This document shows positions 5,775 through 35,053 of a stretch of DNA of 64,000 bases, piece after piece. The DNA is from a virus: positions 62,001-126,000 of IMG/VR virus record IMGVR_UViG_3300013093_000022; one strand, 5' to 3'. Position numbers and translations under genes: made by a program. The notes beneath the pieces were generated by a model. That model made no database searches. It was not told the DNA's origin and worked only from the letters and a program-made list of their open reading frames with translations. Numbering within the stretch: the first letter of the stretch is position 1; the number at the start of each line of letters is the position of its first letter.

Positions 5775-5924
5775 TCACCGATATTCGGTGTCTTCGGTCC
5801 TTTTCATAGTGCCGGTCGGGATCCGGGCACCGCCCAACAGGCCAGCCACCTCCGACACGGGGGGCACCCCTCGGGCCTCCCGGTTCGGCAGCCCGTACTG
5901 CTGAGACTGCGGGGTGATCTGCAT
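5775..5924 (-). CDS. Short hypothetical protein (49 aa)
   Basis: An ATG-to-TGA frame begins two bases after the stop of the small membrane protein upstream, suggesting coupled translation; there is no clear Shine-Dalgarno. The product begins MQITPQSQQYGLPNREAR and ends IPTGTMKRTEDTEYR, is hydrophilic with a short Gly/Leu centre, and has no recognised domain. It fills what would otherwise be a 265-base gap between a holin-like gene and the tail chaperone. A small tail accessory or non-functional frame are both possible. Confidence 0.5.
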   Translation of the reverse strand: MQITPQSQQYGLPNREARGVPPVSEVAGLLGGARIPTGTMKRTEDTEYR

Positions 5925-5925
5925 G

Positions 5926-6114
5926 TCAGGCGGCGGGCTTGTTCGGGACCAGCCAGGTGGCGACCACGGTCAGCACGCCCAGCAGGGTCGACACCAGGGG
6001 CTGGTCGGGCAGGAATGGAATCTGGTTGTAGGCGGTCAACAGGGTTACCGCGACGCCGACCGCAGCGACGGCCGCCTTGCGTGCCGTGGCGACCCAATCC
6101 AAGAAGTTCGTCAT
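5926..6114 (-). CDS. Small two-helix membrane protein, holin-like
   Basis: This encodes 62 residues from ATG with an AAGGGACGA site. It has two hydrophobic segments, residues about 12-28 (AAVAAVGVAVTLLTAY) and 40-57 (LVSTLLGVLTVVATWLV), a short polar turn and a PNKPAA tail. Size, topology and the N-terminal helix match small membrane proteins of actinobacteriophages often called holins (DUF7439-like by memory). It lies between the tail tube and chaperone genes rather than in a lysis cassette, and an r1t-type holin exists near 63.6 kb, so this may be an accessory holin, an antiholin or a different membrane protein. Confidence 0.65.
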   Translation of the reverse strand: MTNFLDWVATARKAAVAAVGVAVTLLTAYNQIPFLPDQPLVSTLLGVLTVVATWLVPNKPAA

Positions 6115-6136
6115 CTCATTCGTCCCTTTTTTGTGG

Positions 6137-6607
6137 TTAAACGGGCGTCGTGTAGCAGTACTGCATGGTCAGGGTCTTGGGCAGGGTCATCGTCCCGATG
6201 TTGATGTTCTCGCCCTCGTCGATGTCGGTGATCACCACGTTGTGGTACACCCTCGAGCGCATGAAGCCGGTCGGCGACTTGATGACCTTCTGCATCGTCA
6301 CCGTCCCCAGGTTGATCTGGGCCTGCAGCACCTGAAGCAGGTTCGCCGTCCCCTGCAGGCCGGGCAGCATTGACCAGACCGGCTCGTTCCACAGCTCGTA
6401 GAACGTGCAACGCAGGGTGCCGCACCCGACCGCGAGCGCGGTCACGATCTCCAGCGGCACCGACTCGTCGATCGGCTGCACCGCCTGGGCGGTCGCCACC
6501 GGGGCCGGGGGCGTGTCCTGCATGACCTGGAGGTAGGCCAGGCGCTGGCCGTTCCACATCATGGTGGTGAACCCGGAACCACCGATCCTGGTTACTGACG
6601 CGACCAT
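6137..6607 (-). CDS. Tail tube protein
   Basis: This encodes 156 residues from ATG, with GGGTAGGGGACAG as the ribosome-binding site. It directly follows the sheath gene, the universal order sheath then tube in myoviruses. The length is typical for a single-domain tube subunit, and the sequence is consistent with the tube beta-barrel: MVASVTRIGG start, a loop-rich middle, and paired strands at residues 120-155 ending TLTMQYCYTT. It polymerises inside the sheath to form the DNA conduit and may assemble on the tape measure. Confidence 0.83.
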   Translation of the reverse strand: MVASVTRIGGSGFTTMMWNGQRLAYLQVMQDTPPAPVATAQAVQPIDESVPLEIVTALAVGCGTLRCTFYELWNEPVWSMLPGLQGTANLLQVLQAQINLGTVTMQKVIKSPTGFMRSRVYHNVVITDIDEGENINIGTMTLPKTLTMQYCYTTPV

Positions 6608-6625
6608 ACTCTGTCCCCTACCCTA

Positions 6626-8236
6626 CTAGTCGCTCTGGAGCGTGTTTGACGCGCCGCCGAAGTCGTTGACCGCCGAGCTCGACGGGCCAGCGGCCGAACT
6701 CATCAAGCCGCTCTGCGTGTTCTGGGTGGTCGTGAAGTCCGACGCATTCGGAGACGCCCCGGTTGAGGTTACGGTCCCGGTGCTCAGGTCGATCCCGAAG
6801 GTCAACACGATGTAGTTCAACGGCATCGAGGGCTTCCAGTTGTACGAGATTTCCAGCACGTCGGGGTTGGTGATCAGTTGGCGTACGGTCAGGGAGTTAT
6901 AGCCCGCGATCAGGCCGTTCACGAGCAGCGACTGGAGGCCGGCCTCGGCGGCGGCCTTCACATTGATCATCGTGTAGTCGTAGATCGGCTGGCCGATGAG
7001 GTTCGAGTTCTGCAGGTAGGCCCGCAGCGTGTACACCATCGAGTCCTGCTGGCCGACGATGTTCCACTCCCGGTGGAAGAGGTCGGCGTTGTTGGTGGTC
7101 ACCCCGTGGCGGACCCACATCCGGCCCCCGTTCGGGGGTGCCATCTCGATGACCATCAGCCCGTTCTGCGACTCGAAGCTCTTCTGGCTGTCGTTCACGC
7201 TGTCGTTGATCCCGGCGAAACCGGTGATCGCCTTGTGGGTCAGGGGTTGGGCGGCGCTCATGCTGACCGCCATACCGGCCAGGGCGCACGCGATGTACTG
7301 TCCCCCCAGGTTGATGGTCTGGCTCAGCTCCGGAGAGTAGTACGAGAAGCTGGTCGGCGAGACGAGTGCGATCCGCTCGTCGTACAGGTCGGAGGCGTAC
7401 TGGATCCGCTGCGTGCTCGACACCGTGTTCCCGGCCGTGCCGTCCATGCCGAGGATCGCCCGCCGCTCGAAACGGCTCGCCGACTGCTGGTCGACGTGCT
7501 CCTGGACCGCCTGGTTCAGGGGGCCCAGGTACGATCCGCTGCACGGCACCACGACCGACACCAGGGCCTGGTCGTTGAGGAGCTGGAGGGCGTTGTAGTA
7601 GTCGCCGTAGTTGGGGGCGCTCGGGTTGGCCGGATTCACCGCGACCGTCATCACCTGGCTGGCACCGTTCAAGAAGGCGAACTTCGCGCCCAAGGTCAGC
7701 TCCGACTGGACGACGAAGCCGTTCGGGTTGGTGGTCGTCGGGACCGACGCGAACGGGGCACCGTACATGGTGACCACGTCGTTGTAGGTGTAGAAGACCT
7801 GCGGCTGGTAGTAGCTGGCGTCGGTGTAGGTGTACGAGATCTGGACGACCTGGCCGACGTTGATGTGCCCCGAGATGACGCGGGAGATCGCGTACGCCGA
7901 GGCGGCGGTGCCGCTCGCGGTTCCGTTGACCGACACGACCGTGTAGTCGGTGTTCAGGGTGTACACCTGGCCGGTGCTGGGGTTGGACACCACGATCGTG
8001 GCCTGGTCGATGCCCAACTGGGCCAGGGTGGCGTTGATCGCCGGGACCGAGGTGCTGGTGTCGGGGTTGATGACGATGCTCTGCACGAACTTGTTCGACC
8101 CGATCGACAGGCCGACCAAGGCGACGGCCGTGGGGATCGCGTTGTTGATCGCCAGGACGGTCGTCTCAGTGGGGTTGGTGTAGACCCCGGGCGGCAGGTA
8201 CCTGGAGAAGTCGACAGCCTGCGACGGAGTGCTCAT
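6626..8236 (-). CDS. Tail sheath protein
   Basis: This encodes 536 residues from ATG. The start DFSRYLPPGVYTNP matches sheath N-termini, where a PGVY motif begins the strand that links neighbouring subunits. Variable beta domains occupy residues about 60-250. The C-terminal sheath domain is recognisable by VWVRHGVTTN-type sequence (here MWVRHGVTTNNADLFHREWN), AAAEAGLQSLLVNGLIAGYN and a final beta-hairpin (ISYNWKPSMPLNYIVLTFGI), which completes the intersubunit mesh. Contraction of this sheath drives the tube through the cell envelope. The last 50 residues are Ser/Thr-rich and may be exposed. This gene fixes the phage as contractile-tailed. Confidence 0.93.
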   Translation of the reverse strand: MSTPSQAVDFSRYLPPGVYTNPTETTVLAINNAIPTAVALVGLSIGSNKFVQSIVINPDTSTSVPAINATLAQLGIDQATIVVSNPSTGQVYTLNTDYTVVSVNGTASGTAASAYAISRVISGHINVGQVVQISYTYTDASYYQPQVFYTYNDVVTMYGAPFASVPTTTNPNGFVVQSELTLGAKFAFLNGASQVMTVAVNPANPSAPNYGDYYNALQLLNDQALVSVVVPCSGSYLGPLNQAVQEHVDQQSASRFERRAILGMDGTAGNTVSSTQRIQYASDLYDERIALVSPTSFSYYSPELSQTINLGGQYIACALAGMAVSMSAAQPLTHKAITGFAGINDSVNDSQKSFESQNGLMVIEMAPPNGGRMWVRHGVTTNNADLFHREWNIVGQQDSMVYTLRAYLQNSNLIGQPIYDYTMINVKAAAEAGLQSLLVNGLIAGYNSLTVRQLITNPDVLEISYNWKPSMPLNYIVLTFGIDLSTGTVTSTGASPNASDFTTTQNTQSGLMSSAAGPSSSAVNDFGGASNTLQSD

Positions 8237-8299: not shown

Positions 8300-9229
8300 T
8301 CACATCACCGGGTAGTCGACGTTCACCCCGTTCGTTTGCCCAGTCATGTCAAAGGGCGCGTACCCTGCGGGTATGACCGGGGAGTTCCCCAGCCACGCCT
8401 GGGGGGTGTAATCCTGCCCGGTCTCGGAGACCGTGACCCCCGACCGGATCTCGGCCAGGGTGTACAGGCCGTCGTTGTTGTACGAGAGGTTGAACTGGCC
8501 GACCATGTCGACGCTCCACGAGTCCTGGTAGGTGAGCAGGTCGTCGGAGAAGGGGGTGCCTTGGCTGGCCTGCTGGCCGCCGGGCAGGAGGGTGTCCAAC
8601 TGCAGGGTCATCGCCACGTACGGGTTCTGGTCGAGGGCGGTGATCAGGCTCCGGTACTGCTGGGTGTCGGCCTGGGGCCTGGTCAGCAGGAGCTGCGGGG
8701 TCCGGGCGAAGGCCAGGACCGAGATCAGCGAGTCGGACAGCCGGTCCCGGTCGAGGCTCTTGAGGGCCAGGATCGTCATCGTGATCCGGCCTTGGAAGGT
8801 CCAGTCCTGGATGAACGACCACTCCCCGGTCTCGGGGTTCTTGACCTGGACCTCGTGGCCCAGGCCCGACCGGTTGATCTTGGTGACCGAGAACTCGACG
8901 AACACCGACGGGTACTCGACCTGCTTGAGCGGGTAGTCGAGGGCGATCTGGACCTTCTGGGTCTTGTCGAACGACATCGAGCCTTGGAGGGCGTCGCGCA
9001 GCGCCTGGACGGTGGCCGTCTTGACCGACTGGATCAGGCCCCCGTCGGAGCGGGGCAGGGGAGGGATCTGGACCGACCCGCCGGGGGGGAAGTCGTAGTC
9101 GGCCATGAACACCGACGGCCCGAACTCGGGGTGGTCGGGGCCGAAGGTCTCGGGGAGCTCGACCGGGAACGCATCCGAGTTGGACACCGGTGCCCCGGGC
9201 TCGCCGGGCGGCGTCAGGGGCCCGGTCAC
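8300..9229 (-). CDS. Neck/tail-terminator region protein
   Basis: This encodes 309 residues; a GTG start overlaps the upstream stop (GTGA). Residues 65-215 contain LIQSVKTATVQALRDALQGS, a helix then strands (YPSVFVEFSVTKINRSG; WTFQGRITMTILALKSLDRD) in the order seen in tail-terminator and neck proteins that cap the tube. The C-terminal 90 residues are an extra beta-rich part. It lies directly upstream of the sheath gene, where tail terminators commonly sit. I infer that it joins tail to neck; the domain identification is by eye and moderate. Confidence 0.6.
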   Translation of the reverse strand: MTGPLTPPGEPGAPVSNSDAFPVELPETFGPDHPEFGPSVFMADYDFPPGGSVQIPPLPRSDGGLIQSVKTATVQALRDALQGSMSFDKTQKVQIALDYPLKQVEYPSVFVEFSVTKINRSGLGHEVQVKNPETGEWSFIQDWTFQGRITMTILALKSLDRDRLSDSLISVLAFARTPQLLLTRPQADTQQYRSLITALDQNPYVAMTLQLDTLLPGGQQASQGTPFSDDLLTYQDSWSVDMVGQFNLSYNNDGLYTLAEIRSGVTVSETGQDYTPQAWLGNSPVIPAGYAPFDMTGQTNGVNVDYPVM

Positions 9230-9678
9230 GAGAACCCCTGGTCCCGCATCAACTGGTTGATGTCGTAGTCGCCGACCGACTTTTGGGGTCGGCCGTAGTT
9301 CTCGGCGTAGTGCTGCTCGGCGGCCGCCTTGGCCTTCTCCGGGGTCTTGAACCGGCCCAACTGCTCGGGCTCGTCGCTGAGCGAGTACCTCGGCGAGGTG
9401 ATGCTGCCGTAGTCGCCGCTCGGCGGTTCAATGGTTTCCATGCCTTGGTGGAGACCGTGGTGGTTGACACCCCAGACGACGGGGTTCCTGCCTCCCCCAC
9501 CCCGGTAGATATGATACTTGACGTGGGTTTCACCGAAGGGTGGGTGCCACTTTTCGGTACCCGTGTTCGTGCCGGGCCAGCGGGGCCGCCAGTCGTCGTG
9601 CGGCTCGTCGGGCGGGAGGACGACGTCCTCGGCGGCGATTCTGAAGGCGAACGTGTCGCGCTGCGTCTGGACTCTCAC
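9226..9678 (-). CDS. QTQRD-family small protein 1
   Basis: This encodes 150 residues, GTG start in a GTGA overlap. It begins MRVQTQRDTFAFRIA and ends DYDINQLMRDQGFS, and the next two upstream genes share both ends, so they are paralogues. The middle is polar, rich in Trp/His/Tyr, with a segment WGVNHHGLHQGM and a short basic helix (EKAKAAAEQHYAENYG). No catalytic motif is recognised. The three lie between HK97-gp10-like and tail-terminator genes, so minor neck-region virion proteins or cargo proteins are plausible. Confidence 0.6.
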   Translation of the reverse strand: MRVQTQRDTFAFRIAAEDVVLPPDEPHDDWRPRWPGTNTGTEKWHPPFGETHVKYHIYRGGGGRNPVVWGVNHHGLHQGMETIEPPSGDYGSITSPRYSLSDEPEQLGRFKTPEKAKAAAEQHYAENYGRPQKSVGDYDINQLMRDQGFS

Positions 9679-10298
9679 CGGAACCCCTCGTCCCGCATGA
9701 TCTGGTTGATGTCCATTTCGCCCAGGCCGCTGCCCTGCCGCTGCGTGTGCCTTCCCCAGGCGGTCTCAGCGGCACGCTGGGCGCTCTCCCGGTCGGGCTG
9801 ATAGCCCCACAGCTCGCCCCGGCTGCCGTCTTGGAACCTCTCGTCCTCGAGGGTCGTCCCGAGGGGGCCGCCGGTGTGGGAGATCTGGTCCCAGCAGTCG
9901 GGGTCGCACTGCTTGCCCGGCTCGGCACCGCACATGCCGCACTCCAAGTCCCGGTCGCCCGGGTCGAGGTGCTCCCACCCGTGGGAGGTGGCGGGATCCG
10001 CGCCGCCGGGGCCGTGGTAGGCGTGGATGGACCACAGGTAGGGCTCGCCGACGATGGTCTTCTCGTGGTTGACCTGCAGGGCGTGCGGACGCTCGCCGTG
10101 GTAGACGATGGCGGTGGACAGGTCCTTTGGCTTCCACGGGGGCGACCCGCCGTACAGGCCGCGCTCCTGCCCCTCGTTGTAGTAGTCCATGTGGTCGGCG
10201 GTGTCCGGCAGCACGAGGCCGCGCCGCCAGTCGACCGGTCCGGGGCCCGCGATTCTGATGGGAAACGTGTCCCGCTGGGACTGGACGCAGCGGGTCAC
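9675..10298 (-). CDS. QTQRD-family small protein 2, with Cys4 module
   Basis: This encodes 207 residues, GTG start (GTGA overlap). It begins MTRCVQSQRDTFPIRIAG and ends GEMDINQIMRDEGFR like its neighbours. About residue 113 it carries CGMCGAEPGKQCDPDC, almost the same as CGACGADAGEECRPYC in the 1365-residue protein at 38877-42974, so a metal-binding module has been shared. The segment VNHEKTIVGEPYLWSIHAYH is a beta-like core also hinted at in paralogue 1 (VNHHG). Function unknown; a structural zinc role is inferred. Confidence 0.6.
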   Translation of the reverse strand: MTRCVQSQRDTFPIRIAGPGPVDWRRGLVLPDTADHMDYYNEGQERGLYGGSPPWKPKDLSTAIVYHGERPHALQVNHEKTIVGEPYLWSIHAYHGPGGADPATSHGWEHLDPGDRDLECGMCGAEPGKQCDPDCWDQISHTGGPLGTTLEDERFQDGSRGELWGYQPDRESAQRAAETAWGRHTQRQGSGLGEMDINQIMRDEGFR

Positions 10299-10795
10299 GA
10301 CCTCTCCCCGAAGATGTCGCCGTAGTCGTCGTTCAGTTCCTGCCCCGGGCCCATCAGCGACTCGTAGTCAACGCCGGAGTCGCCGCCGCCTCGGGAGCGG
10401 CTGCGGTGGTTCAGCCCGTGGAAATGGGCCTCGGCGGCCGCCTTCGCCTCATCATGGGTGGGGTAAATGGTCTTGCCGTTGTCCCCCTGCCACAGGAGGT
10501 CCCCGTCTCCGTTGCCGTAGTCGCGGTGGTTGCCCGACTGCCCGTCCTCGTCCTCAAACGGCTCATTGGTCCAGACGCCGTATCCCCAGCCGATGGGCGG
10601 CAGGTCGTGCCGCACGCGGGACCAGCCGTCGGGGCCGGGGGGGTCTTTCTGGTGCTCCAGATTGGTCTGGAGGAAGTCCCCGAGCTCGCTGTAGGCTTCG
10701 GCCCCGCGACCATCGCGGTCGTCCTCCCAGTTGAACTGGAGCCCCGAGGCCAAGATTGACCTCGCGAAACTGTCCCGTTGCGTCTGTATCCTCAC
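10295..10795 (-). CDS. QTQRD-family small protein 3
   Basis: This encodes 166 residues, GTG start overlapping the previous stop. It starts MRIQTQRDSFARSILASG and keeps the TIYPTHDEAKAAAEAHFHG helix that corresponds to EKAKAAAEQHYAEN of paralogue 1. The C-terminus (YESLMGPGQELNDDYGDIF) is changed relative to the DINQ-MRDGF end of the others. The conserved N-terminal tag on otherwise divergent proteins suggests a common docking or targeting signal. No function recognised. Confidence 0.6.
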   Translation of the reverse strand: MRIQTQRDSFARSILASGLQFNWEDDRDGRGAEAYSELGDFLQTNLEHQKDPPGPDGWSRVRHDLPPIGWGYGVWTNEPFEDEDGQSGNHRDYGNGDGDLLWQGDNGKTIYPTHDEAKAAAEAHFHGLNHRSRSRGGGDSGVDYESLMGPGQELNDDYGDIFGERS

Positions 10796-18568: not shown

Positions 18569-21500
18569 TCAGAGGTAGAACGCCAGGAACTCGCCCGAGT
18601 TGCCCGCCGAGTAGGGCTCGACCGAACTGTAGAGGCGTCCATGCCCCGACGAGAGTGGCTTCGAGGTCTGGGTGACTGAGGCGACGACCCGGCCCGTGCT
18701 TCGGAATGTCACACCGGTGACCGTGGTCGGCGCGACGATGCCGACCAGAGACCCCCTGCCGTGGATTGAGGCGGGAATGAACTGGCGAACAAAAACACTG
18801 GGGGCCGAGAGCATTCCATTCCCGGCGGGCAGCGCAGACACGGCGAACCGGATCAGTTCGGTCGCCGAGTCGCCGCCCGACCCGCGCAGGGGCACCGACA
18901 CGAAGAACCTGGCCGTCGTGGCGGCGGTGAAAGCGCCCCGGCCGGTGAGGGCGGCGGGAGACTTGAAGACCGGAACCGTCTTGGCGGTGAGGGAACCGTG
19001 GCCGGTGGGGGACGCCGTGGCGTACCGGCGGGGTATGGTGGCCGCCGTCAGCGAGCCTTTGCCTGACACTTTCTCGGTGTAGTCGATCAGGTCGACGGCG
19101 GTAAGCCTTCCCTGGCCGGTCAAAGCCTTTGAGATCGGCACGATCTGTTTGGTGGTCGCGGCCAGGGTGCCGTGGCCGGTGACCGCCTTCGAGATCGGGA
19201 TGACGGCCCTGGTGGTCGCGGTGAGGGCACCGTGGCCGGTGACGGCCTTGTTGACGAAGAAGATGGGCACGAATACCCCGGTCAGGGCACCCGAGCCGTG
19301 GGTTTGAGCCGCCGAGTTGATCGAGTACATGCGGGCCGCCGCAGACACGGTGCCCCGGCCTGGCAGGGCGGCGGCGGAGGCGAGCCTGGGGTAGGCGGCC
19401 CCCGACACGGTGCCGCTGCCCGCGAGGGGGGACGACCGGCTGAACCTAGGCGTCGCCGCCGCCCCAAGGGTGCCCCGCCCAGTCAGCGACGCCGACAGCC
19501 TGGGGGTCGCCTTGGCGGTGAGGGTGCCGCTCCCCTGGAGCGTGGCGGGGGCACTGATCCTCGGGACGGTGGCGGTTGTGATCGTGCCCCGGCCCTTAAG
19601 TCCCGGGGTGCCGACGCTGAACCTGGGGTAGGCGGTCCCCGCGAGTGCCCCGTTCCCAGTCGGGGAGCCACTGTCGGGGATCCTCGCGAAGTCGGACAGG
19701 GTCAGTGATCCGGACCCGGTGAGGGCGGCGGTCCGGGAGAACCTTTGGTATTGGGAGGCCGACAGCGAGCCGCTCCCGGCCGTGGCGGCCGACCTGACGA
19801 ATTGGGGGGTTGCCGGAGCCGACAGCGAGCCCCGACCGGCCGCTTGGCCCGTGAACGAGAAGCCGGTCGCCAGGGCGGTCGCCGACACCGACCCCTGGCC
19901 CCTGGCCGTGGGTGAGATCGGCGTGTATCCGAAAGGCTTCCCGGTCAGGGCGACCGCGATCGCCACCCAGTTCTGCGACGAGGCCAGGGTCGTGGAGAAG
20001 GTGGGGTTCTTCAGCCCCGACTCCTCCCCGACCAGGGTCGGGTAGGACACCCCGTTGACGTAGCCGTCCACGGCGATCTGCGACTCCGGGGCCGCGTAGG
20101 TTCCGAAAGACGAGGTGCTATTGCTGCCGAACGACTGCAGCACCAGGTCGCCGGTGCCCGCCGTGACCGACTGCGACGGGGTGGACGACGTGGCGGTGGC
20201 CGTCTGTGCCGACCCGATCCCCACACTGCCGACGTAGGAGACCCCGTGGGCGGTCAGGATCGAGCCGTACCCGCCCCCACCGGAGGCGTTGATGACTATT
20301 TGGTTGGTGCCCGCAGACGGGTTGGTCAGCGAGTAGATGAAGGATTTGTGAGCCGACGCCGACACCGACCCGACCAGGTTCATCGCCGCGCCGTTGTAGG
20401 TCACGCCGGAGACGTTCGCGCCCCCGTAGCAGTAGTCGTGGAGCACCACCATGAGCACGCCGCTCAGCGACGCCGCCGACGACACGGTGTGGTTCCAAGA
20501 CATCGAGCCGGTGCCGCCGATGGACAGCGACTTGCTCGACACCGAGTCCCGGACCGGGGGAGCGGCACCGGCCAAAGAGCCCTGGCCGGTCAGCGACTTC
20601 GAGACGATGAACTTGGTCGAATTGGCGTTCGCCGAGAGGGAGCCGTGGCCGGACAGCGGGACCGATACGTTGAACTTTAGGGCGGCCGACAGTGTGCCGC
20701 GACCCGAAACCTGCGCCGTAAGCCCTGGGACGGCTTTACCGGTCAGCGAGCCGTTGCCGTGCGGCGACGACGGGGTCGGGATCCTAGGTGTCGTGAACCC
20801 GGTCAGCGACCCGGCACCGGTCAGTGGGGCGGTCGCGGCGATCCTCGGATAGGTGGCCGCCGTCAGGGTGCCGCTGCCGGTCAATGCGGCCGACCGGCTG
20901 AACCTCTGGGCGGTCAGGCACGTCAGCGAGCCGGAGCCCGACAGGAGGGCGAACCGGGCGAAACGCGGGGTAGCGGTCGCCGAGACGAGGCCGTGGCCGG
21001 ACAGGGCCGACGACGCGGAAAAACTGGGGGTGCAGGAACCGGCGAGGGTGCCGTGGCCGGATACCGAGGCCGCCGAACCGAAACTCTGGTAGGTGGCACC
21101 GGTCAGGCGGCCGTTCCCGGTCGGCGACCCGTTGTCGGGGATCTTGGCGTAGTCGGACAGCGACAGGGCCCCGTGGCCAGTCAGCGAGACCGAAACCGAG
21201 AGCCTCGGGTATCGGGTGGCGGACAGGGACCCGTTGCCCGTCAAGGCAACCGAAACGGGTATTCGGGCGTACTTGGCCGCCGACAGGAGGCCCTGGCCGC
21301 TTGTCGACGCCGACCGGGAGAAAATCGCGTAGCAGGACCCCGACAGGGATCCGCTGCCCGAGAGGCCCGTCGGGCGGGAGTACCTGGCGTACGCGGCGGC
21401 CGCCAGCGTCCCAGACCCTACCGGTGAACCGGTGTCGGGAATCTTCGCGAAGTCGGAGACGGCCAGGGTGCCGTGGCCCGAGACCGGGGCCGTCTGGCTG

Positions 21501-21727
21501 AACACGGGCCTGGTCGAGGCCGACAACGATCCGTGGCCGGACAGTGAACCGGCCCGGTAGGTCGCCGTGGAGCCGGAGAGGGCACCGTTACCGGTTAGTG
21601 AGGCCGACGCCGAAGTCGAACCCGACGAGGGCGGGGTCCACAGGAACGAGGTCGGGCCGTTCATCCCGGCCAGGCCGACCAGGCCCCCCGACGCTACCGA
21701 GAGCGAGGGTTCGGTCGCCAAAGCCAC
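18569..21727 (-). CDS. Giant repeat fibre protein (1052 aa) with inserted beta-sandwich
   Basis: A GTG start follows GGGGAGGGTAGATC. From residue 44 to about 390 the sequence repeats every 20 residues with the core SGHGSLSA or TGNGSLSA followed by a PRFS-type segment; the G-x-G triplets fall at residues 63, 83, 103 and so on in register. Residues about 394-597 are a different domain (SGVLMVVLHDYCYGGANVSG) of the same type as the adhesin cassette at 22.3-25.9 kb. The 20-residue repeats resume to about 1030 and a short end (EFLAFYL) follows. Such repeats form long beta fibres. It probably is a long side or tail fibre. Confidence 0.72.
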   Translation of the reverse strand: MALATEPSLSVASGGLVGLAGMNGPTSFLWTPPSSGSTSASASLTGNGALSGSTATYRAGSLSGHGSLSASTRPVFSQTAPVSGHGTLAVSDFAKIPDTGSPVGSGTLAAAAYARYSRPTGLSGSGSLSGSCYAIFSRSASTSGQGLLSAAKYARIPVSVALTGNGSLSATRYPRLSVSVSLTGHGALSLSDYAKIPDNGSPTGNGRLTGATYQSFGSAASVSGHGTLAGSCTPSFSASSALSGHGLVSATATPRFARFALLSGSGSLTCLTAQRFSRSAALTGSGTLTAATYPRIAATAPLTGAGSLTGFTTPRIPTPSSPHGNGSLTGKAVPGLTAQVSGRGTLSAALKFNVSVPLSGHGSLSANANSTKFIVSKSLTGQGSLAGAAPPVRDSVSSKSLSIGGTGSMSWNHTVSSAASLSGVLMVVLHDYCYGGANVSGVTYNGAAMNLVGSVSASAHKSFIYSLTNPSAGTNQIVINASGGGGYGSILTAHGVSYVGSVGIGSAQTATATSSTPSQSVTAGTGDLVLQSFGSNSTSSFGTYAAPESQIAVDGYVNGVSYPTLVGEESGLKNPTFSTTLASSQNWVAIAVALTGKPFGYTPISPTARGQGSVSATALATGFSFTGQAAGRGSLSAPATPQFVRSAATAGSGSLSASQYQRFSRTAALTGSGSLTLSDFARIPDSGSPTGNGALAGTAYPRFSVGTPGLKGRGTITTATVPRISAPATLQGSGTLTAKATPRLSASLTGRGTLGAAATPRFSRSSPLAGSGTVSGAAYPRLASAAALPGRGTVSAAARMYSINSAAQTHGSGALTGVFVPIFFVNKAVTGHGALTATTRAVIPISKAVTGHGTLAATTKQIVPISKALTGQGRLTAVDLIDYTEKVSGKGSLTAATIPRRYATASPTGHGSLTAKTVPVFKSPAALTGRGAFTAATTARFFVSVPLRGSGGDSATELIRFAVSALPAGNGMLSAPSVFVRQFIPASIHGRGSLVGIVAPTTVTGVTFRSTGRVVASVTQTSKPLSSGHGRLYSSVEPYSAGNSGEFLAFYL
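18638..19903 (-). repeat. Second block of degenerate 60-nt coding repeats
   Basis: About 20 repeats of a unit encoding (S/T)GxGxLxA plus a PRFS-like segment, spaced about 60 bases; nucleotide identity between units is low, but protein periodicity is clear. Confidence 0.7.
20558..21598 (-). repeat. First block of degenerate 60-nt coding repeats
   Basis: About 17 units encoding a 20-residue repeat with near-perfect register; the block ends where a beta-sandwich domain is inserted. Confidence 0.72.
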
Positions 21728-21752: not shown

Positions 21753-22337
21753 TTAGGGGGTGACAGTGACCGTGTTCGACACCTCCGAGGTGGCGGTGTG
21801 GCCGTAGTGGTCGGTGGCGGTCACCGTGAACGAGACGTCGGCACCGGGGGTCAGGCCGGTGACCGTCAGGGTGACGTCGCCACCGGAAACGACCGGGGAT
21901 CCCGACACCGTCACGGCACCCGAAGGGTCGGACACGGTGTACGTCCACGGGGCGTTGGGCGACGACGGTTGCGGGAAGGTGAGGGTCGCCTCCGAACCCG
22001 CGATCGGGTTTGCGACCGGGGTCGCCGACCACGCCAGGGGCACGTCGGCGGTGAAGGTGGCGGCGAACTCGCTGGGCGTGTAGCAAGTAATCGTTTCGCC
22101 GTCCGACACGATCCAGTCGTGTTCGTAAGCGACCTGGGTTTCAAGCCGGGGCTGGACGAAGCTGATCTGCCAGATCGGTGCCTCGATGGTGCCCTGGCAC
22201 AGGGCGTTGGTCTGGTAGCCCAGTTGTGCCCCGACGATCATGGCCGTCATGGCGTCGGCGGGGTGGTCGAAGTCCACCTGCCATGCGCTGAACGTCGGCG
22301 CGGCGGGAGGGGTGATGAGGGTGGGGTTGATGGTCAT
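21753..22337 (-). CDS. Ig/FN3-like virion protein
   Basis: This encodes 194 residues from ATG with TAAGGACTG upstream. Residues 1-85 are an alpha/beta segment (AMTAMIVGAQLGYQTNALCQ). Residues 95-194 form an immunoglobulin or fibronectin-type module (LTVTGLTPGADVSFTVTATD; SEVSNTVTVTP). Such modules decorate virions and bind glycans weakly. It precedes the giant repeat fibre and may connect it. Confidence 0.6.
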   Translation of the reverse strand: MTINPTLITPPAAPTFSAWQVDFDHPADAMTAMIVGAQLGYQTNALCQGTIEAPIWQISFVQPRLETQVAYEHDWIVSDGETITCYTPSEFAATFTADVPLAWSATPVANPIAGSEATLTFPQPSSPNAPWTYTVSDPSGAVTVSGSPVVSGGDVTLTVTGLTPGADVSFTVTATDHYGHTATSEVSNTVTVTP

Positions 22338-22352: not shown

Positions 22353-23084
22353 TTAGATCGCTGGTGCTAGAACGGTGGACATTGCTGTGTAAAACCTCGC
22401 GTAAGATGCGGTGCCGCTGATGGTTCCGGTGAAGGTCTTCGTGGTGCTTGCATCGGCAATGTTTGAGCCGACGTAATATACCCCCGCACCGTTCCAGCCG
22501 CTTAAGTTGAACCTTTGATCCCCCCCGGCAGGGGAGGTGATGCCGGAAGGCGAGTTGAAGCAACTGAACATGAATCCATTTACGACCATATTGTTGACAG
22601 GGCAGGAAATGGTGTTACTGAGGCTGATCGCCGCTGTTGTTGACGTAACCGGATTCACTGTGGTCGCCTGACTGGTGACATTCAAGTAGGACATTGAGGA
22701 AATACAGGTCCAGACTGCGTTGCCGCCAAATGTGATGTAGAGGCTTACCGGGCCTCCGCTGACATTCGGCAATCCGTATCGGGAATACATCCCAGCGGTA
22801 CTCAAGCCAGATTCTGTAAAGGTGACCGACGAGAGAAGCTGCATTGCGGTTCCCGACGACCCACCGTACTGGACGCTGGTTATTGGCACGCGGTCGGTCA
22901 CAACATCTACAATCAAATACGACCCCGCCGTGGCAACACTGTTGATTGAGTAAGTGGTGGCGTTGATATACTGCTGGTAGGTCGTCGGGTAGCCCGTCCC
23001 GCTCTGGTCGTATTTGACAGCGATCCCCTCCGATGGCTGTGGGGCAATTGGCCTGATCGGGAACCGACGCAACAGGTGCGCCAT
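22353..23084 (-). CDS. Adhesin-cassette protein 5 (beta-sandwich)
   Basis: This encodes 243 residues, ATG in a TGATG overlap. It starts MAHLLRRFPIRP, a variant of the R-x-GR-x-(F/Y)P tag shared by the four genes before it. The body (SYLIVDVVTDRVPITSVQYG; GPVSLYITFGGNAVWTCISS) is the same beta-sandwich type as in the genes at 24419 and 25165 and the insert of the repeat fibre. The common C-terminal tag is absent or diverged (ends STVLAPAI), fitting its place as last member. Codons are AT-richer than in surrounding genes. Confidence 0.6.
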   Translation of the reverse strand: MAHLLRRFPIRPIAPQPSEGIAVKYDQSGTGYPTTYQQYINATTYSINSVATAGSYLIVDVVTDRVPITSVQYGGSSGTAMQLLSSVTFTESGLSTAGMYSRYGLPNVSGGPVSLYITFGGNAVWTCISSMSYLNVTSQATTVNPVTSTTAAISLSNTISCPVNNMVVNGFMFSCFNSPSGITSPAGGDQRFNLSGWNGAGVYYVGSNIADASTTKTFTGTISGTASYARFYTAMSTVLAPAI

Positions 23085-23764
23085 CAGAGCCTCGCCATCC
23101 CCACCGCACTCGACATAGGCATTTGCATTTGACTCAATCCCTGCGGCGGCACGTCCACGTTGGTGTAGGTGTAAATCCAGGCCGCGCCGTTACCCCCTGA
23201 CCCACCCGGACCGTAGTAAAAACTGCCGCTATTTCCCGCACTCCCAGGCGAACCACCACTACCAAATACCGCGCTAGCCGCAGTGCCCCCTAAATAGGTT
23301 TTAAAATCAAACGTGAAGTTTCCGGCAGGTTGCCCCTGAACAGCGTCGTATCCTGCGGTGACGTAACCTGCAACGCCGCCAGCCGCCGTTAAAGACCACG
23401 ATCCAGATGAGGCGGAACTGTTACTCCCGGCGATGCCGGGATAGGCGTAACCAGCGTAAGGCAAGGGACCGCCAGCGCCACCCGCGCCGACAGTCACAGT
23501 GATTTTTGCGCCGACCGGCACCGTCACACCAACTGCGAGGGTTTGGCCTTCCCACTTGCCAGCGCCACCGCCGCCGCAGTAGGTTCCACCACCGGAACCA
23601 CCACCCCCGCCGCCGATCAACACCACGTCCACGAAGTTGACACCGGCAGGAATCGTGAAAGCAAACGTACCGGGCGTGTTGAGTTGGAGGGCGAGCTGTT
23701 TATAAATCGGGGTTGGTAAAAAAACTCGTGTCTGCGGGTATCCGCGACCAAGGCGAGATGCCAT
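23084..23764 (-). CDS. Adhesin-cassette protein 4 (glycine-rich tip type)
   Basis: This encodes 226 residues from ATG. N-terminal tag MASRLGRGYPQTRVFLP. The body contains FTIPAGVNFVDVVLIGGGGG and several further Gly-rich loops, the hallmark of glycine-rich phage receptor-binding domains in which polyglycine II-like loops present specificity residues. C-terminal tag SQMQMPMSSAVGMARL is a variant of the QVPVTMSRG-x-x-L end of neighbours. It is probably a cell-surface binding protein. Confidence 0.65.
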   Translation of the reverse strand: MASRLGRGYPQTRVFLPTPIYKQLALQLNTPGTFAFTIPAGVNFVDVVLIGGGGGGSGGGTYCGGGGAGKWEGQTLAVGVTVPVGAKITVTVGAGGAGGPLPYAGYAYPGIAGSNSSASSGSWSLTAAGGVAGYVTAGYDAVQGQPAGNFTFDFKTYLGGTAASAVFGSGGSPGSAGNSGSFYYGPGGSGGNGAAWIYTYTNVDVPPQGLSQMQMPMSSAVGMARL

Positions 23765-23765
23765 G

Positions 23766-24419
23766 TCAGATCAGCCCCCCACGAGTCATCATGGTAGTGG
23801 CTGTTATTTGGGAATAATTTTCCGGCAGGGTCAGGATGTAGGGGTTGACGTAGGCGTAGAACCAGATTGCCCCCTGACCTCCAGCGCCGCCACCGTAAGC
23901 AAAAAAAGATGGCCCCCCGCCGCCACCCGGCACCGCGCCAGTTTGACCGAAACCCAAAGAAATTAGTGGACCGCCAATGTAGCTTCTCCCATTGTAGCTA
24001 ATTCCCCCAGGTGACGTAGAGGAAGCGGTCCCAGCATTCTGCGCTCCAGCCGCGACGAGGCCGGACCAGCCAGTAGAAGTCGCCGTGGTGTTGCCCCCCA
24101 CCCCGAACCCGTAGACTCCACCACCCCCACCGGCACCGACTGAACCCGCAATGGTGGGACCGACCTGAGATACCTTGACTGTTGCCCACGCCCAGTTTCC
24201 TGGGTTACCTACGAAGCCGTAGCCCCCACCGGAGCCGCCACCTAAAGCGACCACGTCCACATACACTGCACCCACTGGAATTGTGTAGGTGTATGCACCT
24301 ACTGCGGTGAATTGTGCCATCGCATTGTTGGAGTGGACAGTGCCGGGTGCAGACTGTTTGGCCCAACCCGTGTAAGGCTGGGTGGACTGCATTGGGAAGC
24401 CTCGACCGATGACGGGCAT
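23766..24419 (-). CDS. Adhesin-cassette protein 3 (glycine-rich tip type)
   Basis: This encodes 217 residues, coupled to the upstream stop. N-terminal MPVIGRGFPMQSTQPYTG, then YTIPVGAVYVDVVALGGGSG and long Gly-rich stretches (VGAGGGGGVYGFGVGGNTT), as in protein 4, with which it is clearly paralogous (IPxGxxxVDVVxxGGG). C-terminus SQITATTMMTRGGLI carries the shared end tag. Likely receptor-binding tip protein. Confidence 0.65.
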   Translation of the reverse strand: MPVIGRGFPMQSTQPYTGWAKQSAPGTVHSNNAMAQFTAVGAYTYTIPVGAVYVDVVALGGGSGGGYGFVGNPGNWAWATVKVSQVGPTIAGSVGAGGGGGVYGFGVGGNTTATSTGWSGLVAAGAQNAGTASSTSPGGISYNGRSYIGGPLISLGFGQTGAVPGGGGGPSFFAYGGGAGGQGAIWFYAYVNPYILTLPENYSQITATTMMTRGGLI

Positions 24420-25165
24420 CAGAACAACCTCCCCCTGGACATAGGGATTGTCACCGGAACCTGGGAAGGCTCCTTAAGGTACGGGGTCTGTATCAGCGGC
24501 ACAGCGATAGAGCAATACCCGAGGCTGCCGCTCGACGTGGTCGCAAAGGTCGCGGGAGGAACGGCATCACCAATATACAGCGTAGAACATGCAAAACGTT
24601 CTGTTTTTGTGAGATAACCCGTCACCGCTGTATCGCTGAGTGCGGCCCCCATCCACGCCTGGGAAATGAGCTGTCCACCCGACACTGTTGTTGAGATGGT
24701 TCCGGCAGTGTTCTGTCCTTGGAGGATGACAGGTATTCCGAATCGTCCGACGTTGTTATACGAAACTGAACCAACATAAACACCATTGGCGTTAATGTTA
24801 CAGTTGGAAACAGAAACGGAAATCGTCTGAGTACCCTTGGGTGGATTGCTCAATCCGAAAACAAAACCATATCCCCAAAAATAATAGCTGGCGATAAACA
24901 GGTAGTAAGGACCAACCTGATAGGCGATTGGTGTCATGCTTAATCCCCCACAGGAAACATTCACCGTGGGCGCGGAGTTATAGACATCTACTTCCACATA
25001 AACCAACAAAGCATTGCCAGCTATGGTGTGAGAAAAGGAGGGGTTTGCTGCCCCTGTCCCACCAGCGAAACCCGCACCAGCGGAGTCGAACGTGATCGGG
25101 GAAACCGCGCCGTCCGACAACGTCAAGGTAGAGGCGACGGGTAGGGTGCGACCAAGCCGTGCCAT
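24419..25165 (-). CDS. Adhesin-cassette protein 2 (beta-sandwich)
   Basis: This encodes 248 residues; ATG overlaps the upstream stop (TAATG). N-terminal MARLGRTLPVASTLTL. Body NALLVYVEVDVYNSAPTVNV, SCGGLSMTPIA, LSNPPKGTQTISVSVSNCN and VSYNNVGRFGIP match protein 1 and the repeat-fibre insert position by position. C-terminal tag SQVPVTIPMSRGRLF. Base composition is visibly lower in GC than flanking genes, suggesting transfer or distinct selection. Confidence 0.65.
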   Translation of the reverse strand: MARLGRTLPVASTLTLSDGAVSPITFDSAGAGFAGGTGAANPSFSHTIAGNALLVYVEVDVYNSAPTVNVSCGGLSMTPIAYQVGPYYLFIASYYFWGYGFVFGLSNPPKGTQTISVSVSNCNINANGVYVGSVSYNNVGRFGIPVILQGQNTAGTISTTVSGGQLISQAWMGAALSDTAVTGYLTKTERFACSTLYIGDAVPPATFATTSSGSLGYCSIAVPLIQTPYLKEPSQVPVTIPMSRGRLF

Positions 25166-25893
25166 TACAGGTACGCTCCGCGACTCATCGTTACTGGAAC
25201 CTGATTGTAAAGTTCCGGCAGTGCAGGGGGGAACGGTAGGGGGTTAAGTGGCAGAGAAAAGGAACTCCAAGCATTGGCGCTAGCGGTAGCCGAAATGTTT
25301 CCAGAGGTAGATGTTCCCAGTAGAACTTGCTGTGTTGACGCAATCGTTCCGCTGTAGCCGGAACTGTAAGAGGTCATTGCGTTGAAGATCAGCCCATTAT
25401 TTTCCAACCCGGTCACGGTTTGGCTGATCGACGTTGTAGTACCGCTGGCGGTCTGTATTCTCCCCACCGAACCAACATTGCGGAACGATATCGCGTTCAA
25501 ACCCAAGGCGCTGTTGTAGCCGGTATTTGCCGTGTTTGATATTGTCTGTAGTCCTTGCGGCGGGTTCCAGAGTAGGTATAAAAGAGCGCTCTGCGCCTGA
25601 TTGACTACGTTAACGTAGTTTAGAACGGCAGAAACGAATTTCATCGTCTGACCACCGACACTGATCGTACATGGGTTTCCTCCAATCGGACCCTGCGTAT
25701 ACAGAGTCACGAAAACGAGTAACAAGTTGCCGTAGATGTACTGTTGCTGTGTCGGGGCATTGCTAATCGCAATCGTGAACCCAGCATTGCAGCCTGGACC
25801 GACAACGTCCACCGTGACCGGGGAAAACGGGGCAATGCGGGGAGCAAGCTGATTATTCTTTGTTGAGGCGAGTTGGCTGTGAAACCTCCCCAC
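25165..25893 (-). CDS. Adhesin-cassette protein 1 (beta-sandwich)
   Basis: This encodes 242 residues from GTG behind GGAGGGGAGG. N-terminal MGRFHSQLASTKNNQLAP. Body GNLLLVFVTLYTQGPIGG, ISVGGQTMKFVSAV, LWNPPQGLQTISNTANTG, ISFRNVGSVGRI; the same domain as protein 2. C-terminal NQVPVTMSRGAYL defines the shared end tag. First gene of a tightly overlapping five-gene run. Likely virion adhesin. Confidence 0.65.
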   Translation of the reverse strand: MGRFHSQLASTKNNQLAPRIAPFSPVTVDVVGPGCNAGFTIAISNAPTQQQYIYGNLLLVFVTLYTQGPIGGNPCTISVGGQTMKFVSAVLNYVNVVNQAQSALLYLLWNPPQGLQTISNTANTGYNSALGLNAISFRNVGSVGRIQTASGTTTSISQTVTGLENNGLIFNAMTSYSSGYSGTIASTQQVLLGTSTSGNISATASANAWSSFSLPLNPLPFPPALPELYNQVPVTMSRGAYL

Positions 25894-25939: not shown

Positions 25940-26440
25940 TCACTCCTCCCAGATGCAGTAGCACAGGACGGTCGTCGCCGCAGACGTCGAAGGGGTGGCC
26001 CGAATCCGAAGGCTGTACCCGGCGTTCGCCTCAACCTCTCTCCCGAGAGGGAACTGCTGCTTGAAGTAGGTGCTCAGGTCGTACGTCATCGCCAACAGCC
26101 GGGTCGCGGTGATCGTGCCCTCCGCGCTCGCGTTGAACCCGGTCGCCGCCGTGCCGGTCGTGGCCTGAGACGCCGGGCCGGTCGTGTCGTTGTAGTTCGA
26201 GATCGTCCCGGCGGTGACCGTGGCGAACACGGTGCCGGTCTCGATCAACTCCATCTGGACTGGGCTGGTCGGGGCGGCCGCGAACATGTACCCCCACTCA
26301 ACGACCCGGATCTTCTTCAGCGGGGCGATCTGGAGAATAGTTTTCACCGTCCCCGAAGAGGTCGAGGTAGCCGTCCCGGCCATAGGTGCCGTCAGGGCAG
26401 TCGTGGACGCATTCCACGAGATGAAGCAGGGTGCCGCCAT
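25940..26440 (-). CDS. Virion decoration/fibre protein, beta-rich
   Basis: This encodes 166 residues from ATG with CGAGGAGTGAG upstream. It begins MAAPCFISWNASTTALTAP and continues with alternating strands rich in Ala/Thr (SGTVKTILQIAPLKKIRVVE; SPVQMELIETGTVFATVTAG), ending TTVLCYCIWEE. The pattern is that of a compact jelly-roll-like virion protein. It separates the glycosyltransferase from the adhesin cassette. Function not recognised. Confidence 0.55.
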   Translation of the reverse strand: MAAPCFISWNASTTALTAPMAGTATSTSSGTVKTILQIAPLKKIRVVEWGYMFAAAPTSPVQMELIETGTVFATVTAGTISNYNDTTGPASQATTGTAATGFNASAEGTITATRLLAMTYDLSTYFKQQFPLGREVEANAGYSLRIRATPSTSAATTVLCYCIWEE

Positions 26441-26465: not shown

Positions 26466-27185
26466 TCACGCTATCTCCAGGGGTACATCTTCCAGCCCGG
26501 CCTCCCGGGCCTGTTCCCACGTCTTCACGTCGGGGTCGATGGCCAAAGCGGCCTGCGAGTGGCCGTACCCGATCGGGACCTCGGTCAGGTGTCCGCACCC
26601 GATCCCCGAGTCGAGCCACACCTTGAACCCTTGCTGGCGTGCGGCGTGGCAGAACCACAGGTCGTGGCCGACCAGCGGCGGCTGGGCGTCCCACATCGGG
26701 ATCCTCGGGTCCCAACCCTCGAACACCCGGCGGTGGATCGACGTCAAACCCATCGCCACCCCGTCGACCGGGTACAGGGCTGGGTTGTCGACCATTACCC
26801 TGGTCACCTCGGCCGTCAGGGGCGAGAACATCGGCGGCTTGACCTGCATCCAGGCCATCACGTGGTGGGGGGCGTCGTGCTTGAAGTAGGTGGTCCCGAC
26901 GATGTCATAATCCGCACCGTCGGGGGCGTCTCCGTAGGTGGAGATCCGGTTAAGGGCGTCCAGCGGGGGAATCATGTCGTGCTCGTAGACGACCACCCGG
27001 TCCCAGTCGTCGCCGAAATGCTTGTACGTCAAATCGACCAGGGTCGCCATCGCCTGGGGCAGGTAGATGCCCTCGGTGGCGACGGTGCCGACCACGTGGT
27101 CCTTCTTCAACTGCAGCCACTGGAAGAACCAGTTCACCGACACCTGTCGGTACATGGGGAAGGCGACGACGAGCCGATCGGTCAC
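26466..27185 (-). CDS. Glycosyltransferase, GT-A fold (family 2-like)
   Basis: This encodes 239 residues; GTG start (VTDRLVVAFPMYRQVSVNWF) overlaps the upstream stop by GTGA. N-terminal nucleotide-binding strand-helix, then RVVVYEHDMIPPLDALNRI, where EHDM takes the place of the metal-binding DxD motif. The C-terminal acceptor region GHDLWFCHAARQQGFKVWLD then CGHLTEV contains the D and H residues typical of these enzymes. It probably transfers a sugar from a nucleotide donor to a virion protein or cell-wall glycan. Its place inside the fibre cluster suggests modification of adhesins. Confidence 0.75.
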   Translation of the reverse strand: MTDRLVVAFPMYRQVSVNWFFQWLQLKKDHVVGTVATEGIYLPQAMATLVDLTYKHFGDDWDRVVVYEHDMIPPLDALNRISTYGDAPDGADYDIVGTTYFKHDAPHHVMAWMQVKPPMFSPLTAEVTRVMVDNPALYPVDGVAMGLTSIHRRVFEGWDPRIPMWDAQPPLVGHDLWFCHAARQQGFKVWLDSGIGCGHLTEVPIGYGHSQAALAIDPDVKTWEQAREAGLEDVPLEIA

Positions 27186-27730
27186 GGGGCCACACCGAAG
27201 GAGAATGAGTTCACGCCGGTAGAGTAGCACTGCGACTGGCCCGAACCGTTAACGACAACAACCTCGCCACTGTCGCCCGGATTGCCGCCCGGCGAGTCGA
27301 TCGTGATCTCGGTGTCGGAGACAACTGTGTAATCGGGCGTTAAAGGCCCGCTATCGGTCCCCAGAACGATCAGAATCGTCCCGGTGAAGAACTGGCCGGT
27401 GACGGTGATCGTGTCGCCCCCAGAGGGGCTCAGGACGGTCGGGGAGATGCCGGTGATGACCGGGACCGCCGAGTACAGGTACTGGCCTTCCGGTGCCACA
27501 GGGGAAATCCCAGAGGGGCCGGTGACCGTGACGTCGACCTGTCCGACGGCATTCGCCGGGGCGACGGCGGAGATGTAGGTGTCCTCGACGACCTCCCAGC
27601 CCGTCGCCTGGACCGAGCCGAAAGTCACGGCGGTCGCGTCGGTGAACCCCGAGCCCTCGATGCCGACGGTGTTGCCGCCGACCGTGGGACCCGAACCCGG
27701 CCAGACGCCTGTCACGACAGGGCTGGTCAT
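27182..27730 (-). CDS. Protein with two IPT/TIG-like beta domains
   Basis: This encodes 182 residues from ATG (MTSPVVTGVWPGSGPTVGG). Two tandem repeats of about 85 residues each start with P-x-(V/I)-TG(V/I)-x-P and contain GGNTVGIEGSGFTDATAVTF and SGGDTITVTGQFFTGTILIV, the signature of IPT/TIG immunoglobulin-like folds. Such domains occur as surface-exposed decorations on phage capsids and fibres. It is coupled to the glycosyltransferase that follows, which might modify it. Confidence 0.72.
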   Translation of the reverse strand: MTSPVVTGVWPGSGPTVGGNTVGIEGSGFTDATAVTFGSVQATGWEVVEDTYISAVAPANAVGQVDVTVTGPSGISPVAPEGQYLYSAVPVITGISPTVLSPSGGDTITVTGQFFTGTILIVLGTDSGPLTPDYTVVSDTEITIDSPGGNPGDSGEVVVVNGSGQSQCYSTGVNSFSFGVAP

Positions 27731-34051: not shown

Positions 34052-35053
34052 CTAGCTCTTACGAAGTATAACTATGCCGCGTGGGTTTAACACAGCCATC
34101 CCGACGAGCTCGTCCATCACCCATCCCTTGTGGAACTGCTCCACGAGGTTGTTCTCGGTGACGTCCAGGCTGTACATGACCGGGAACACGCCCAGGAAGG
34201 ACGGGTCCGGGGTCAGGTACGTGGTGCCCGGGGGGATGATGATCGACTTGCCGATCTGGAACTCGCCGAACTGGACGATCCGCTCACCGGCCACGACACT
34301 GTCCTTGAAGGCCCAGCCGGTCGTGTTGATGTCCCACCTGTAGAAGTCACGGTACTCCTGCGGGTTGCACAGCAGACGGGTGCTGTCCAACATGCGCTGG
34401 TCGGTGAAGGTCACCGCCGTGTACAGGTCGTCCGGGGACAGGTAGGTACCCGCCACCTGGATCTCGTTCGGCAGCGACCCGGTGCCCGGTGCCGAGGTCG
34501 GGTCGACCGACCGGTACTGGGCCGCCGAGACCTCCAGCAGGGTCACCAGGCGGGCGTCTTCCTGACGCATGATCGCCTGCTTCGTCATGTCCTGGGTGTA
34601 CTCGACGATGTTGGACCGCAGGTAGTACAGGTCTTCCTTCTTGATCTTCGGGAAGGAGGCGATGCGGAACAGGAGGATCTCGACACGCTTGCCCTCGAAG
34701 GGCGTGATCTTGATCTCGCCCTCGTCGCCGTGCAGGAGGTACGCCTGACCCAGGTCGTCCAGGATGTCGTACTGAATGGGCACGCCGGGGGTCAAAGTGT
34801 CCTCCAGCAGAACATTCCGCAGAATACCCTGGTAGCGAAGCTGAAGCTGGATCGGGCCGATCATCGACTGACCGAGGCGAACCATCCCATTCTGGCGGTC
34901 GGCCAGAATGTTCGCCAGCTTGACCTGCTTGTCGCGGGCCGACAGCTTACGCCCGCCCATCTTCCGCATCGTCGACTGCATGTCGGAGACGTACTCGTCG
35001 GACTTCTTCGCGAACCGGCCGAAGCCGGAACCGGTAGCAACAGGAACAGCCAT
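34052..35053 (-). CDS. Major capsid protein, HK97 fold
   Basis: This encodes 333 residues from ATG with TTAGGAAGGGG upstream. N-arm and helix (VSDMQSTMRKMGGRKLSARD), a long spine-helix region (LYYLRSNIVEYTQDMTKQAIMR), and beta-rich P- and A-domain segments (LGQAYLLHGDEGEIKITPFE; TTYLTPDPSFLGVFPVMYSL) fit the HK97-type capsid seen in large myoviruses. It follows protease/scaffold and decoration genes. No propeptide is obvious; the first 35 residues might be cleaved. It forms the icosahedral shell. Confidence 0.88.
   Translation of the reverse strand: MAVPVATGSGFGRFAKKSDEYVSDMQSTMRKMGGRKLSARDKQVKLANILADRQNGMVRLGQSMIGPIQLQLRYQGILRNVLLEDTLTPGVPIQYDILDDLGQAYLLHGDEGEIKITPFEGKRVEILLFRIASFPKIKKEDLYYLRSNIVEYTQDMTKQAIMRQEDARLVTLLEVSAAQYRSVDPTSAPGTGSLPNEIQVAGTYLSPDDLYTAVTFTDQRMLDSTRLLCNPQEYRDFYRWDINTTGWAFKDSVVAGERIVQFGEFQIGKSIIIPPGTTYLTPDPSFLGVFPVMYSLDVTENNLVEQFHKGWVMDELVGMAVLNPRGIVILRKS

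Follow-up and report, generated by a model that had tools for sequence, protein, structure and literature searches.

Receptor-binding proteins (RBPs) of phages K1E, K1-5 and SP6 and of Klebsiella phages of the KP32 and KP34 types are attached to an anchor protein by conserved N-terminal peptides of 7–29 residues (PMC6872550), and the ExsF trimer of Bacillus spores has a cleft in which the BclA/F-Anchor exosporium leader docks (PMC11952670, PDB 9H3D). Here, we analyse a cassette of five genes (g1–g5) in a viral DNA stretch of 64,000 nucleotides (the window), which spans positions 62001-126000 of the 126.5-kb IMG/VR virus record IMGVR_UViG_3300013093_000022, and whose products carry short, similar peptides at their N termini (N-tags) and, for most of them, at their C termini (C-tags). 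We found that these tags are conserved as protein while the bodies between them are swapped, and that they travel with a dedicated 166-residue beta-protein encoded upstream, which we refer to as the anchor.

This arrangement resembles the branched RBP systems of the K1-5/SP6/KP32 type in its variable bodies with short conserved N-terminal peptides, and here too one such peptide heads unrelated bodies. Unlike in those systems, the candidate for the anchor here is a separate, small beta-protein rather than an RBP bearing a T4gp10-like domain (we found no such docking domain on it, no meaningful Pfam or PHROG match and no confident fold in the PDB), dozens of divergent phage loci share one leader, C-terminal tags are present, up to five tagged genes stand in tandem and the bodies are not recognised as depolymerases. 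Like the ExsF system, it pairs a small all-beta protein with proteins that share a short N-terminal leader (fibre proteins in the case of ExsF), but ExsF is a spore protein, not a phage one, and has no sequence relation to the anchor. Membership of either family fails at a defining feature, the T4gp10 domain in the first and homology to ExsF in the second. Two other comparisons concern single components: the bodies of g3 and g4 belong to PF21722, as in the mycobacteriophage PF21722 and minor tail families (phrog_356, 416, 553 and 2106), which describe bodies only and not a tag-and-anchor arrangement; and trimeric phage cement proteins (GP4 gp1, Pam1; PMC9698820) are similar to the anchor in size and all-beta, but show no significant structural or sequence match to it, and the anchor genes of close relatives lie among tail genes.

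A low-GC cassette of tagged genes

The cassette consists of five consecutive open reading frames (ORFs) on the minus strand, in the order 25893→22353, with the anchor gene just upstream:

25940-26440, minus strand: anchor, 166-residue all-beta protein, the constant neighbour of tagged genes
25165-25893, minus strand: g1, beta-sandwich body, degenerate N-tag, clear C-tag, GTG start
24419-25165, minus strand: g2, beta-sandwich body, both tags
23766-24419, minus strand: g3, glycine-rich PF21722 body, both tags
23084-23764, minus strand: g4, glycine-rich PF21722 body, N-tag with a one-residue insertion, weak C-tag
22353-23084, minus strand: g5, beta-sandwich body, N-tag variant, last slot and without a C-tag

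A previous reading made from the sequence only (the sequence-only reading) had described five overlapping genes of lower GC content (guanine plus cytosine) than their flanks, with three beta-sandwich and two glycine-rich bodies. The five ORFs are real and overlap by 1 nucleotide (nt; TAATG or TGATG), except that g3 and g4 lie 1 nt apart. The GC content is 55.6%, compared to 65.5% for the whole window, making the cassette the least GC-rich 3.5 kb (none of 605 sliding windows of 3,541 nt is equally low). The division of the bodies also holds: those of g1, g2 and g5 form one homologous beta-sandwich family (g1–g2 E value 1e-4), which g5 joins through bodies of the related loci L002 and L004 (5e-19 and 2e-30), and g3 and g4 match PF21722 (Gly_rich_2) with E values of 2e-9 (38.1 bits) and 5e-17 (63.2 bits), both above the curated cut-off of 24.3 bits. 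In PHROG, g1, g3 and g4 match minor tail proteins best, and the g1 body resembles cluster A mycobacteriophage proteins such as Bxb1 gp5. The bodies make poor queries because they diverge too fast: g2 as sole query found no relatives, and g3 found none in cultured phages by tblastn. The g1 protein is 48% identical to its L002 relative. Foldseek gave no confident PDB match for the g2 body.

The tags map as follows:

25867-25893, minus strand: N-tag of g1, MGRFHSQLA(S), degenerate
25139-25165, minus strand: N-tag of g2, MARLGRTLP
24393-24419, minus strand: N-tag of g3, MPVIGRGFP
23735-23764, minus strand: N-tag of g4, MASRLGRGYP, with the one-residue insertion
23058-23084, minus strand: N-tag of g5, MAHLLRRFP
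25165-25206, minus strand: C-tag of g1 and stop, NQVPVTMSRGAYL, present also in the g1 counterpart of L002 (L002_1)
24419-24466, minus strand: C-tag of g2 and stop, SQVPVTIPMSRGRLF
23766-23813, minus strand: C-tag of g3 and stop, SQITATTMMTRGGLI
23084-23134, minus strand: weak C-tag of g4 and stop, SQMQMPMSSAVGMARL

The N-terminal consensus proposed earlier was right in outline and fits g2 best, but few of the genes match it literally, as g3, g4 and g5 carry variants and g1 a degenerate form; the C-terminal consensus claimed for four genes is clear in g1–g3, weak in g4 and absent in g5. Within the g2 C-tag, the codons AGGGGGAGG may double as the ribosome site for g3. In an AlphaFold2 model of g2, the body folds into beta structure, the leader (residues 1–17, predicted local distance difference test (pLDDT) score <50) is disordered and the C-terminal tail is loose; the tags are thus predicted to hang as disordered tails from a folded domain. 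Scanned with a regular expression, the remainder of the phage record gave no additional tagged gene, and the other matches in the window, few in number, were ORFs not judged to be genes; a full-text literature search for the tag strings found no paper.

Another set of three consecutive genes in the window (9226-10795, minus strand) has a different common N-terminal motif (VRVQTQRDTF, VTRCVQSQRDTF and VRIQTQRDSF), and two of them share the C terminus DINQ(L/I)MRD(Q/E)GF; this phage may thus carry two tandem sets of tagged genes.

Tags travel with an anchor gene

The anchor gene is the most informative part of the locus, and the sequence-only reading, which tied its idea to one phage, had missed it. 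As a single-sequence query, the window anchor matched 10 IMG/VR contigs, and an anchor alignment, searched blind to the tags, found at least 255 IMG/VR relatives, 80 of which were fetched for locus analysis. For this family, searches of Pfam, PHROG and PDB sequences gave nothing meaningful, and five of its members gave no tblastn match in 50,697 cultured-phage records; as far as these searches reach, it is undescribed. Among phages with a related major capsid protein, we found no anchor-family ORF in the stretches scanned of I3, Myrna, Skog, E3, RedWattleHog and Phrappuccino. The AlphaFold2 model of the anchor is all-beta (pLDDT 91), and its matches with E values <0.001 in a viral structure library are mostly uncharacterised phage proteins. 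The gene is single-copy in the window's own record and in seven other whole records checked. Locus L029 has two anchor-family genes (1393-1881 and 4117-4617, minus strand) with a C-tagged gene between them, which suggests a duplication of the anchor.

In all 10 loci from the single-sequence search, which is free of tag-selection bias, the anchor is followed by a gene starting like MARLGR..P. L002, the closest multi-gene relative, has a g1 relative that starts MARFGRRIP, the counterpart of the degenerate g1 tag of the window; in L011 and L012, the first tagged gene starts at an internal MSRLLRRYP and the second at MTRLGRRFP. In L013, a GTDB contig, the anchor precedes MARLGRSYP on a 964-residue repeat protein.

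We measured this linkage from both sides. After removal of near-copies, 55 loci had enough DNA downstream of the anchor, and the core 9-mer MxRx[GF]RxxP occurs within 3 kb in 43 of them, compared to no match in 1.49 Mb of control DNA (471 kb upstream and 1,018 kb of reverse strand). Evident tag variants (for example, MRLGRSQPFKP, MAILGRGFPIP and MPVLGRSRP) in 8 further loci bring the count to 51 of 55. Conversely, an anchor-blind search with a DNA pattern for MAR[LF]GRx[FY]P gave 85 contig stretches, where for 47 of 57 genes that start with the tag (at least 100 residues), an anchor-family gene lies 0–3 kb upstream in the same orientation; several of the remaining 10 sit close to the end of their locus. 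The 83 tagged proteins (83–1548 residues) fall into 45 body clusters. Conservation of the tags in relatives, which the sequence-only reading had made a test of its idea, extends far beyond close relatives.

We also mapped tag residue 8 on the anchor tree. Its clustering is moderate (13 changes compared to 18.1 in shuffled data), too weak to argue for co-evolution of anchor and tag beyond shared descent.

A general C-terminal tag

Many loci have, between the anchor and the N-tagged gene, a gene without an N-tag that ends in, for example, RQAVNRASTY or LQAINRSNTY, giving a general C-tag pattern QA(V/I)xRAxxY. In its strict form, this pattern ends 22 of 42 genes directly before an N-tagged gene, compared to 4 of 362 other genes of the same regions, and by eye the C-tagged proteins fall with g1, g2 and g5 in one broad beta-sandwich class. 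The C-tag is kept where the next gene starts 12–15 nt away with a GGAGG-like site of its own, and is thus not merely a ribosome site. In the window lineage, N-tag and C-tag stand on the same protein. The strict pattern does not cover the C-tags there, but their position and spacing, together with the SQSVxN forms of L006, which are intermediate, make it plausible that NQVPVTMSRGxxL is the local form of this tag, corresponding to QAVNRASxY.

Conserved ends, exchanged bodies

Across the 74 genes that match the 9-mer, the residues are fixed or almost fixed, but the arginines R3 and R6 are each written with six codons and G5 and P9 each with four. Because the match itself requires R3, R6 and P9, the informative quantity is the spread of codons and not the count of residues; with codons degenerate at fixed residues, selection therefore acts on the tags as protein.

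Exchange of bodies between fixed tags, which the sequence-only reading had proposed to look for in related phages, is seen when the window is compared to L002, where slot-specific tags are kept and bodies swapped. The second L002 protein (MPRLGRTLPVQST...MTRSRLF) has the tags of slot 2, that of g2, yet its best body match in the window is g5 (E value 5e-19 versus 0.51 for g2). The third (MAVVGRGYPSQSTQ...VTRGGLI) combines g3-like tags with a beta-sandwich body where g3 is glycine-rich, and the slot-4 N-tag MASRLGRG, common to both loci, heads a glycine-rich body in the window and a LamG-like one (by eye) in L002. The last-slot tag MAH[LF]L.R.P recurs in L004 and L006, likewise without a C-tag. 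The exchange is not only very recent, because the junction DNA of the window and L002 differs by many synonymous changes.

A proposed docking model and its alternatives

The sequence-only reading had taken the cassette for a docking-tag system by which different receptor-binding domains could be mounted on one virion, an interpretation that our results partly support. We propose that the disordered end-peptides dock exchangeable adhesins on a virion scaffold, probably the tail tip, through the anchor, and give this explanation a probability of roughly 58%. The locus would encode a set of interchangeable virion adhesins, each with a short disordered leader of the form M-A-R-[LF]-G-R-x-[FYQ]-P or a slot variant of it, and most also with a C-terminal tail tag. 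The leader, and probably the tail tag too, would attach to a constant structural partner, for which anchor oligomers on the tail tip or baseplate are the most likely candidate; we favour the anchor for this role because no other neighbour is constant. A body of any kind could then be mounted if it had suitable end-peptides, the slot variants (TLPVxST, xVxGRGxPxQSTQ, MASRLGRG and MAHLLRRFP) may address positions or the order of assembly, and the beta-sandwich, glycine-rich and LamG-like bodies would be domains that bind host surfaces. As for the site, the anchor gene follows Dit and minor tail genes in L009, follows minor tail genes in L106 and precedes baseplate genes in L012, all three close relatives. 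On this gene order, we favour the tail tip over the head for the system of the window; PHROG counts of anchor neighbours, a mix of head, tail and packaging genes, point to no single site.

Several observations weigh against this proposal. The N-tag of g1 is degenerate in the window itself, and in 4 of the 55 loci (L115, L150, L163 and L172) no tag can be recognised. The count may be inflated, as the 37 anchors in the wide-search alignment came mostly from contigs selected by tag. In the more distant relatives L118 and L154, the anchor lies near the major capsid gene, which allows for a head location. The anchor fold has no confident match in the PDB (all E values >0.001); the first few weak matches include jelly-roll-type folds and the complex of ExsF with the F-Anchor peptide (Foldseek E value 0.0097, TM score 0.26), and profile searches gave no PDB sequence match that would relate the anchor to ExsF, so the ExsF parallel is best taken as a functional analogy and offers no support from fold.

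The position of L118 and L154 leads to an alternative in which the anchor decorates the capsid in the manner of a cement protein, with the tagged proteins forming head fibres by which phages are held to surfaces. In both the window and L013, the anchor also stands at the capsid side of the structural genes, its viral structure matches include a Bcep43 gp01-type protein, and there are trimeric beta cement proteins close to it in size (PMC9698820). Cement proteins are marked by a place on the capsid, as trimers at (quasi-)threefold axes, and the gene neighbourhood of the anchor is mixed in this respect. Set against this are the placement of the closest relatives among minor tail and baseplate genes, the matches of the bodies to minor tail protein families and the lack of a significant fold match between the anchor and a cement protein, and we regard docking on the head as unlikely, though well worth keeping in mind. 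A further alternative is that the leader mounts nothing and instead directs targeting or processing, for example by sending proteins into the prohead or to a protease, and is then removed. This would suit a peptide that is short, N-terminal, disordered and conserved; it would not lead one to expect pairing with one specific small virion-like gene, a separate C-terminal tag or tail-adhesin-like bodies, and we consider it improbable.

The two remaining explanations grant the tags no docking role either. One-base gene overlaps, and GGRGG-like strings at ribosome-site distance in the window C-tags, are what by-products of gene junctions would look like, whether as a ribosome site at gene ends plus a start that favours coupled translation or as handles for DNA recombination. 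Tag codons are freely degenerate, though, the C-tag persists next to genes that have their own ribosome site, and N-tags occur on single genes without a tagged neighbour; codon degeneracy and spacing largely refute both versions, and we hold this origin to be very improbable. The homology of the g1, g2 and g5 bodies would fit shared ends that are functionless relics of tandem duplication of one ancestral gene with a diverged middle. But across many divergent loci, one leader heads bodies of the glycine-rich, LamG-like, beta-sandwich and long-repeat kinds, and R3, R6 and P9 are invariant while the bodies are unrecognisable, which makes relics the least probable of the explanations weighed here. 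The docking of adhesins through the anchor, probably at the tail tip, is the reading we retain.

Genomic setting

The phage is a Ceeclamvirinae-like (Bxz1-type) myovirus, because its major capsid protein shares about 81% identity with those of Bixzunavirus (mycobacteriophage cluster C) records, and its tail sheath (phrog_2839 match) and tape measure (phrog_2836 match) are of the Bxz1 type. The cassette lies between the capsid and sheath genes, an interval that tail-fibre, tail-spike and decoration genes occupy in some relatives:

34052-35053: major capsid gene
6626-8236: tail sheath gene
21753-22337, minus strand: 194-residue protein after the cassette, second half Ig/fn3-like

The first half of the 194-residue protein resembles the small protein that precedes the anchor in L006. 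Beyond it, a 1052-residue protein (18569-21727, minus strand) has repeats of about 20 residues (xSGxGSL), interrupted by one module that is related to cassette bodies of L008, L105 and L106.

Near the cassette, a glycosyltransferase (26466-27230, minus strand) is 53% identical to Omegavirus gp11, from another phage group, and its presence in a Bxz1-like myovirus reads as mosaic exchange. Baka (Omegavirus), inspected for its related glycosyltransferase, has no comparable cassette among its annotated genes. The 1102-residue terminase has a middle part that matches an endonuclease PHROG and is weakly similar (22%, E value 5e-7) to a 1566-residue protein of the window (genes at 60158-63466 and 44685-49385, minus strand), pointing to possible inteins or homing insertions. 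In L012, an extra gene for a 249-residue protein (5917-6666) lies between two baseplate genes and is absent from the otherwise very similar L011; by eye, its product resembles homing-endonuclease-associated repeats.

Discussion

To our knowledge, short docking peptides are an established feature of phage RBPs, and those described differ between phage groups. We tentatively put forward, at slightly less than even odds, a broader claim: a widespread and so far undescribed virion-display system in which a small beta-protein family captures a near-universal 9-residue leader and a C-terminal tail tag, many lineages mount dozens of unrelated adhesin bodies on it, and slot variants serve as addresses in arrays of up to five. 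If true, one leader over dozens of divergent loci and body types, together with a companion protein dedicated to it, would amount to a display code of general use. With the tags as a sequence handle, adhesin genes of uncultured phages can be located even where their bodies resemble no known protein, and the question of how a single virion carries several adhesins can be put directly to the test with a small protein and a pair of peptides.

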